Source: Gammaproteobacteria bacterium | GTDB lineage: Bacteria > Pseudomonadota > Gammaproteobacteria > SZUA-140 | NCBI GenBank assembly: GCA_026982565.1 | Contig: JALSGV010000184.1 | Coordinates: 1-35,807, forward strand | Reading direction: 5' to 3' | Length of the DNA stretch: 35,807 nt | Shown here: positions 7,132 through 12,336 of the stretch, in pieces | How the letters are laid out: every line of letters starts with the position of its first letter | Numbering within the stretch: the first letter of the stretch is position 1 | The notes under the pieces: generated by a model | The model's input: the letters and a program-made list of their open reading frames with translations, nothing else | The model's database searches: none | Told to the model about the DNA's origin: nothing | Made by a program: the position numbers and the translations under genes

Positions 7132-10100
7132 ATGGATATCTTCGAATTTCGCAACAGGATCATCGACGACTACCATGCTTTTGCAAGAAGTTTTACCCGG
7201 GTTCGTGCCAAGGATCTCAAGGAATATCTGAACGACCTTTACGATAAACAATATTTCTGGCCCGCGCCCCTAGTTCAGCTCAACCCGCGATTTGTCCAGG
7301 GTCGCAGCATCGAAAAGATGGTCCATGCCAGGGTCTTGCACCCCGAATGCGCGCAAGTTTTTCGTATCGGAAAGGAAGAGGGTAACGTCGGTCGGACCCT
7401 CATCCTACACAAACATCAAGACGATGCAATTGAAATCGCAAGTACCCATAGTAACTACGTGCTTACAACCGGAACGGGCTCTGGCAAGTCACTGAGTTAC
7501 TTTGTACCCATCGTCGACCATGTTCTTAAACAGAAAGAATCGAATCCGGCGCCCGGAATCAAGGCCATCGTCATCTATCCGATGAATGCCTTGGCAAACA
7601 GCCAGACCGATGAACTGAAGAAATTCCTCAAGGCGGGATATCCCGCTGGGGGTGAACCCGTCACCTTCGAGCGTTACACCGGACAGGAGAGCCAAGAGGA
7701 ACGCGAAGCCATGGCGGCCAACCCTCCGGACATCCTCCTCACCAACTTCATGATGCTCGAACTCATCATGACCCGCCAGGACGATACCGACAAAGCGATC
7801 GTGCGCCATGCGAAAGGGCTCCGCTTTCTGGTGCTGGATGAACTGCACACCTACAGAGGACGGCAAGGTGCGGACGTTGCCCTGCTCGTGCGTCGGGTGC
7901 GTGAGGCGCTGAATCCGGATCTGATCTGTGTCGGAACCTCGGCCACCATGGCCAGCGAGGGTGGTATAGGTGAAAGGAAAAAAGTCGTGGCCGATGTGGC
8001 ATCGAGGTTATTTGGTAGCCCGGTAAGTTCAGACCATGTCATCATGGAGGCACTGGAACGTGTGACAGCGGGCACGCCGAACCAGACGGCCTCCATGCTA
8101 GCATCGGCAATCCAGCAAGGCGTGTCGCCCGGTTTGGATATCGATGCACTGAAACGCCACCCTGTCGCCATCTGGGTGGAAACCCAGCTTGGCCTGCAAG
8201 AGGAAGAAGGCCGTTGGGTGCGAGCCAAGCCGCGCTCATTGGACGAAGCCGCTGGCATGCTCGCCGAGGCAAGTGGTGTAGATAAGGCTCGTTGCCTGGA
8301 TTACCTGCGTGATTTTTTGCTGCTCTCCCAACAAAAGGGCCTTTTTGCTTTTCGTCTGCATCAATTCATATCCGGCGCTGGCGATCTCTATGCCACGCTT
8401 GAGGCACCTGGAACACGTTATATTGATATATCCGGCCAACAGGTCCAACCTGGACACCGCGACAAGCGCCTTTTCAATGTCGCTTTTTGCCGGGAGTGCG
8501 GGCAGGAGTATCATCCCGTGTGGGCGCAGCAGCAGCACGATGTGTTGACCCACATCGAGCCCCGCGAACTGGATGACCGGACACGGGACGACGATTCGGC
8601 GGCGTTCGGACTCTTCATGCCGGACCCCGACTGGATATGGGATGCGGAAAGCATCGACAGTTATCCGGAACTGTGGATCGATTTCAGTCGTGACGAGCCG
8701 CGTATCAAGCCGCATTTCAAGAAATACCGACCGCGCCCGATTCGGGTTTCCACCGAAGGCCATGTCGGTGAGGAAGGCTTGCCCGGCTGGTTTATTCCGG
8801 GAAACTTGCGATTTTGCCTGCATTGTGGCGTCAGTTATCACACCCATAGCAAAGAATCAGCGCGCCTTAGCGGATTGAGCAGCGAGGGCCGCAGTTCGGC
8901 CACTACGGTGCTGACCTTATCCGCATTGCGTTACATGCTCCTGGATGCAGGAGACCTCCCCGAGCACGCCCGCAAACTGTTGGGCTTTACGGACAACCGG
9001 CAGGATGCATCGCTTCAGGCGGGGCATTTCAATGATTTCATACAGGTGCTTTTGCTACGCGGCGCCCTCCTGTCGGCGGCCAAACGGGCCACTCTGCAGG
9101 AAAGCCGCCTCAGTGATCGTAACCTCACTCAGAGCGTTTTCGAGATGCTGGGCTTCGGCAGCGATGATGTCGAAGTGCGGCGGGAATACATGTCCAATCC
9201 TGAAGCCATGGGTCCGGCGCGCCGGCGCGCCGAGGACGCCATGCGCGATGTCCTGGGTTACCGGCTCTATTACGATCTGCGGCGTGGCTGGCGCTTCACC
9301 AATCCCAATCTCGAGCAGCTGGGACTGCTGAGCATCGACTACGAGGGGCTGGACGAGGCGAGCCGAGAAGGCGCCTTGTGGACCGATGCGCATCCGCTTC
9401 TGGCCAATGCCAGCCCAGAGGTCCGGCGCAGCATCATGAAACAATTGCTGGACACCATGCGCCAGGCCCTGTGCATCAAGACGCGCTATCTGGATCGGGC
9501 CGTGCTGGAGCAGATCCAGCAAGCCAGCCATAACTATCTAAGGGAGCCCTGGGGCTTTACCGAGGACGAGCGCCCAGAATACGCGAACTATCTGGTTCCC
9601 GGCCCAAAGCGCCAGAATGGCGATCCACAGGTTGTGCCCCTATCGGTCCGTTCCAACTTTGGCAAGGCCCTGCGCAAGCCCAACACCTGGGGTGGGGTCA
9701 CAAAGGATTTCCCGCAGCGCTTCGACGAGGCGGTATTCGAACAGATTCTCTCGGACATGCTGCGGGCAGCGGAACGATACGGTTTCATCGAAGAGGCGCG
9801 TCTCGACCGTGGTGTCAAAGGTTACCAGGTCGTGGCGGATGTCTTGCAATGGGAAGTGCCTCAGGCAGAGGAGAGCATGCCCACCGGCGGGAACCGTTTC
9901 GCCAATCGGTACTTTCGTAGCCTGTACAGCAATATTGCAGCTTACCTGGATCAAGGGGGGCGTACTCTGTTTCGCCTCGAAGCCCGCGAACATACTGCGC
10001 AGGTGGACCCCGCGGACAGGGAGGAGCGGGAGGAACGTTTCCGCCGAGCGCAGCTCCCGGTCCTGTTCTGCTCGCCGACCATGGAGCTGGGTGTGGACAT

Positions 10101-12336: not shown

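Follow-up and report, generated by a model that had tools for sequence, protein, structure and literature searches.

The 1734-aa protein encoded at 7132-12336 of the window analysed here (the whole 35,807-nucleotide stretch of a gammaproteobacterial contig) is very probably the ArmC component of an ARMADA Type I anti-phage system, with the genes for its partners ArmA and ArmB next to it. It represents a fresh example of an already known defence type and no unusual new fusion. The chain is confirmed as the helicase-nuclease of a recently described defence system, for which the main text of the describing preprint reports experiments with Type II alone. Comparison with its relatives makes one question testable, namely whether ARMADA Type I uses the fused Vsr nuclease as its effector, because the active site has disappeared in three or more branches and, in the one large clade, operons commonly carry a gene for an HNH nuclease. 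Beyond the preprint's main text the analysis makes two modest additions, the pattern of tail inactivation and the arrangement of ARMADA Type I with Druantia III. The features of the window are as follows.

347-6560, minus strand: three overlapping genes for an SNF2 helicase, a PLD-domain protein and a 444-aa protein.
6711..7127, plus strand: small winged-HTH protein (PADLOC PDC-M05A, E 1.6e-35).
7132..12336, plus strand: ArmC-like YprA-family helicase-nuclease with an ATG start, 1734 aa.
7411..7953, plus strand: RecA1/DEAD domain of ArmC, residues 94-274, with Walker A TGTGSGKS at 113-120 and DELH at 236-239.
9973..10188, plus strand: helicase C-terminal (RecA2) domain of ArmC, residues 948-1019, with motif VI QRSGRAGR at 1010-1017.
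11584..11877, plus strand: MZB/DUF1998 zinc-binding domain of ArmC, residues 1485-1582.
11929..12333, plus strand: predicted C-terminal Vsr/DUF559 (EDxHD-like) nuclease domain of ArmC, residues 1600-1734, with E1638, D1668, D1681, H1685 and D1694.
12333..15143, plus strand: ArmA-like SNF2/RapA-type (BrxHII/DrmD/DpdE-like) helicase, 936 aa, with a 4-bp overlap with the ArmC stop.
15147..19112, plus strand: ArmB-like adenine methyltransferase (Eco57I/PglX/DrmMI-like), 1321 aa, with NPPW at 774.
19109..22471, plus strand: SF1 helicase (AAA_11/AAA_12) with a C-terminal MTES_1575/DUF559 nuclease, with a 4-bp overlap with the ArmB stop.
22468..25176, plus strand: 902-aa protein with weak TPR matches, with a 4-bp overlap with the preceding stop.
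25191..28613, plus strand: Druantia III DruH, start uncertain (ATG 25191 or 25215).
28610..34798, plus strand: Druantia III DruE, 2062 aa (PADLOC DruE3, 2214 bits).

The original prediction, that helicase and DUF1998 domains lie within a single 1734-aa chain, was borne out by a whole-protein Pfam scan, which returned DEAD (E 1.4e-25), Helicase_C (1.2e-13) and MZB (9e-10). The Walker A, Walker B (DELH) and motif VI sequences are all intact, and CxxC pairs at residues 453-456 and 562-565 are compatible with zinc-binding insertions. Type I ArmC proteins are characterised by a BrxA-like insertion that follows RecA1, by beta-barrel and MarR-like insertions within RecA2 and by a finger-like coiled coil. 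The best PDB match by sequence to the protein is 9tu7, whose title reads just 'DEAD/DEAH box helicase' and which may be a DruE.

Placement of the protein within the wider helicase family identified the DruE/ArmC side as its home. PADLOC scored it at 339 bits against DruE3, the best family, versus 54 bits against DrmA, and the DrmA model of NCBIfam reached 18 bits where its cut-off is 950. In a maximum-likelihood tree calculated from the helicase core (35 proteins, 368 columns), the protein fell inside a 19-member Type I-like clade with support of 100/99, and was grouped with the E. coli ArmC and two DruE3 proteins with support of 90/89. Within this grouping it is separate from DruE3 and from the Type II ArmC of E. 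coli, and the DrmA, DpdJ and MrfA-type helicases stand apart from it; the exact branching is tentative, given the long branches that lead to DrmA and to the E. coli ArmC. The assignment to Type I is based on architecture, gene order and separation in the tree from one Type II ArmC, with the published Type I reference (WP_108720193.1) standing outside the set of sequences compared.

These scores and the tree led us to reject a fusion of the DISARM proteins DrmA and DrmB, which the original prediction had suggested by its comparison with DISARM. In its fuller form this reading would make the locus a DISARM variant in which a fused DrmA-DrmB chain had gained a nuclease, and the neighbouring genes do offer it something: the adjacent SNF2 helicase matches DrmD at 297 bits and the methyltransferase matches DrmMI at 258 bits, both genes being shared with class 1 DISARM, and the chain carries a DUF1998-type domain. 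However, the DrmA scores are far too low, DrmA lies apart from the protein in the tree, and the operon has no DrmC. The single chain is, moreover, described as the usual state of the YprA family, in which DISARM is the branch with a consistently split chain and so the exception (PMC12458937). The DISARM reading is thus already refuted in large part, and we regard it as very improbable.

A place on the repair side of the family fares slightly worse still. A stand-alone MrfA-type DNA repair helicase with no role in defence could be proposed from the MZB region, for which MrfA (6znp) is the best-solved structural relative, but such helicases are about 750-850 aa in length, have no defence operon and belong to the repair branch, whereas the present protein is twice the length of MrfA, clusters in the tree with defence YprA proteins in a different clade, and is encoded in a conserved operon with an SNF2 helicase and a methylase within an island that also contains Druantia III. 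Two outcomes had been named that would refute the original prediction, a tail without an endonuclease fold and a closer relation to stand-alone MrfA-type helicases than to DrmA/DrmB, and neither was obtained: the predicted tail has such a fold, and the protein is no closer to stand-alone MrfA. Stand-alone MrfA was therefore rejected on length, tree and operon, and synteny and tree together refute the repair-helicase reading, which we consider exceedingly unlikely.

The assignment to ArmC is further supported by the operon. In PADLOC the two neighbours of ArmC fall with DrmD/DpdE (691 bits for DpdE) and with DrmMI/PglX. The order ArmC-ArmA-ArmB was found in essentially every relative with a long enough contig, the sample being 80 named relatives together with loci from plasmids and genomes. 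The phyla represented are Pseudomonadota, Actinomycetota, Deinococcota, Chloroflexota, Cyanobacteriota, Planctomycetota and others. In one locus (L106) the other two operon genes lie on the strand opposite ArmC, and plasmid MP1 of Deinococcus radiodurans R1 (L023) carries a Type I-like operon in which ArmB is in three pieces, broken by an insertion sequence. A search for ArmC relatives in viral contigs found none, apart from one phage record with a partial match of 26% identity. The winged-HTH gene that precedes ArmC in the window is probably a regulator of the operon.

Evidence that the region after DUF1998 is a nuclease domain was obtained from sequence profiles and from structure prediction. 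The PD...D-x-PHH pattern that had first drawn attention to this tail is present in the string E1638...P1667-D1668...D1681-G-P-H-H1685...D1694, and when 51 tails were aligned, E1638, D1668, D1681, G1682, H1685 and D1694 showed no substitution in any of them. In the whole-protein Pfam scan DUF559 matched residues 1668-1715 at 19.0 bits, just under the cut-off of 20.6, and the isolated tail (residues 1600-1734) reached 24.0 bits (E 3.7e-5), above that cut-off; DUF559 also matched all 28 relatives' tails that were scanned, with an additional MTES_1575 match in 9. AlphaFold2 models of residues 1450-1734 and of residues 1600-1734 had a mean pLDDT of 92.4 and 87.8, respectively, and the second of them returned as the top solved match in Foldseek the catalytic domain of I-Bth0305I (3r3p, E 5e-3, probability 1.00, TM 0.59 by target), a homing endonuclease that serves as the type example for the EDxHD family (PMC3943268). 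Against viral models the top matches were endonucleases, DUF559 proteins and very-short-patch-repair endonucleases (E from about 1e-4). Searching the PDB with just the tail sequence gave no match, and a profile of 28 tails gave a weak match to 3hrl, an endonuclease-like protein (E 0.009), with two chance-level matches below it. The scores obtained with DUF559 and with Foldseek are modest. The residue pattern is no chance likeness, given the DUF559 matches of the isolated tail and of the relatives' tails, the invariant residues and the predicted fold, and a true Vsr/DUF559-type endonuclease fold is well supported for the modelled tail; its residues and fold point to nuclease activity. The proposed Vsr/DUF559 likeness and the union of helicase, DUF1998 and endonuclease-type tail in one defence protein therefore hold. 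The view of the tail as an added oddity does not, as it is conserved in most relatives and is described for ARMADA Types I and II, the account of Type I including a C-terminal Vsr nuclease, so that a fused nuclease tail was already known for the class (PMC12458937).

Conservation of the catalytic residues was evaluated for the 88 ArmC relatives whose tail is complete, a tail being counted as intact when it kept at least four of the E/D/D/H/D residues. The set is kept in 58 of the 88, including the protein studied here, and lost in the other 30, which retain the ArmC-ArmA-ArmB operon. A tree inferred with the tail columns left out needs three or more changes to account for the losses: 27 of the 30 lost tails form one clade drawn from Pseudomonadota, Myxococcota, Acidobacteriota, Verrucomicrobiota and Thermodesulfobacteriota, and further losses occur in Streptomyces (L127, L137) and in one Burkholderiaceae MAG (L072). 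The main text of the preprint makes no mention of inactive Type I tails (PMC12458937). The loci concerned are given below with those carrying HNH_2 matches.

Tail lost: L058, L059, L078-L080, L082-L084, L086, L087, L089, L091, L092, L097, L102.
Tail lost, remainder: L107, L108, L114, L119, L120, L124, L128, L132-L134, L138, L012; also L072, L127, L137.
HNH_2 gene or partial match downstream of ArmB: L079, L080, L091, L107, L114, L120, L128, L133, L134, L138, L030 (G313), L071.

Since the operon persists in these 30 of 88 relatives although the catalytic residues are gone, cleavage by the tail is not essential throughout the family. The degenerate tails persist and are still homologous to the intact ones (hhalign profile comparison 99%, E 3.6e-18), and in Druantia I and II the tail is described as a Vsr domain that has become inactive (PMC12458937). 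Both observations would fit a structural role for the tail, in DNA binding or protein contact, such that even a tail with its catalytic residues would not be a working nuclease. However, retention of these residues in 58 of 88 relatives at an overall tail identity of 31-45% makes a non-catalytic tail hard to credit, and we consider a purely structural role unlikely for the present protein and favour a nuclease.

Loss of the catalytic residues is associated with a second nuclease gene. Among loci with enough flank, an HNH_2 gene lies downstream of ArmB in 11 of 25 tail-lost loci versus 1 of 34 intact ones (Fisher p 1.4e-4), where L030, from the same tail-lost genome (G313) as L012, is counted as lost. 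The comparison comprises just three independent tree contrasts, and the association may therefore have been inherited once with the clade; the distribution is suggestive of a nuclease swap and is no proof of one. A broader proposal, which we offer as doubtful, is that the Vsr domain is dead in the 27-relative ArmC clade and an HNH nuclease encoded near ArmB cuts in its place, whereas forms like the present one retain the fused nuclease, and that in the present genome ARMADA I, the SF1 helicase-nuclease and Druantia III are both expressed as a single unit and jointly active. In 16 Type I loci, of which 9 have a dead and 7 an intact tail, ArmB is also followed by a gene of ~700 aa without a Pfam match (L082:22477-24618 and relatives), which appears P-loop ATPase-like by eye and is possibly an accessory ARMADA gene.

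The genes from 7132 to 34798 are all co-directional, with 4-bp overlaps or short gaps, and the run continues past ArmB into genes of other kinds. Comparison of the SF1 helicase with a 557-aa part of the E. coli ArmD gave no significant match, and none of the other Type I ArmC genes among the relatives' loci has it as a neighbour; on these two grounds it was not taken for an ArmD equivalent. The 902-aa protein has no PADLOC family, and its one relative in 398 genomes of the phylum (31% identity, G288:C205) lies outside a recognisable defence context. The DruH gene adjoins the other DruE (28610-34798), not the ArmC gene. A position next to Druantia III is documented for ARMADA Type II in E. coli, and the corresponding arrangement for Type I is absent from the preprint's main text (PMC12458937).

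On the left-hand side of the window, the three minus-strand genes probably comprise a further, PDC-M27-like defence module: the SNF2 helicase (929 aa) matches PDC-M27C at 107 bits, the PLD-domain protein (697 aa) matches ZacB at 55 bits and PDC-M27B weakly, and the 444-aa protein matches PDC-M27A at 10 bits. Homologues of all three (43, 34 and 33% identity) occur in one run at 3270-17438 of another locus (L146, G243:C116), which also carries a second SNF2 helicase and a relative (55%) of the SF1 helicase-nuclease in the window. A 486-aa protein of the same run has an N-terminus that appears Hsp70/actin-like by eye. The run points to a system of six genes, which in the window would lie divided on either side of ARMADA, and the SF1 protein may belong to the left-hand module because G243 pairs its relative with relatives of the left-hand genes.

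The analysis itself shows the domains, the motifs, the predicted fold of the tail, the operon and the position in the tree; for the working of the system we infer that the tail cuts DNA, in what sequence the steps follow and that ArmB serves in self-discrimination. ArmC would load onto phage DNA via its RecA core and DUF1998 canopy, and would translocate along or unwind the DNA with ATP, as suggested by MrfA and DruE (PMC12458937, PMC13192584). The exposed DNA would be cut by the C-terminal Vsr/EDxHD-type domain, to judge from its residues and fold, with E1638, D1668 and D1681 holding the metal and H1685 assisting. ArmA may help to remodel or find the target DNA, and ArmB, by analogy with DISARM and BREX, may mark or sense methylation so that host DNA is spared.

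Among known systems, the nearest counterpart of the tail alone is the group of I-Bth0305I, Vsr and DUF559 proteins, with which it has in common its predicted fold and an E-D-x-H-D-like residue set; these are free-standing homing or repair nucleases, at 16% identity, whereas here the domain is carried on a defence helicase. Class 1 DISARM (DrmA, DrmB, DrmD, DrmMI, DrmC) resembles the present operon in its SNF2 helicase and methylase homologues and in DUF1998, but has the helicase and DUF1998 on two chains and a separate PLD protein as nuclease, with DrmA far removed in the tree. The DruE of Druantia III belongs to the same YprA branch and gave the best PADLOC family for the protein. It differs in having two C-terminal PLD-type domains and in working with an adjoining DruH (PMC12458937, PMC13192584), while the tail of the present protein is of DUF559/Vsr type and Pfam found no PLD domain in the chain.

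ARMADA Type II, represented by E. coli ATCC 8739 (whose ARMADA II/Druantia III/Zorya II locus was examined at its known coordinates) and NCTC 12900, likewise combines a YprA helicase bearing a Vsr-type nuclease with an SNF2 helicase and a PglX-type methylase, and it also adjoins Druantia III. Its order is instead ArmA-ArmB-ArmC-ArmD, with a RelE-GajB-like helicase, and its ArmC, of 2113 aa, lies far away in the tree. Anti-phage activity is reported for this type alone, in E. coli, where defence is direct and non-abortive and depends on each of the four genes, on the Walker motifs in both ArmA and ArmC and on NPPW in ArmB (PMC12458937). ARMADA Type I, as described by Bell et al. in their 2025 preprint, has the order YprA, BrxHII-like, PglX-like and a C-terminal Vsr nuclease (PMC12458937). 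The window differs from it in that the operon runs co-directionally into the SF1 helicase-nuclease, the 902-aa protein and Druantia III, a continuation absent from the other Type I ArmC loci within up to 10 kb on each side. The two agree in several respects: the YprA helicase comes first, the gene order matches, helicase and DUF1998 form a single chain, and that chain ends in a Vsr-type nuclease domain.
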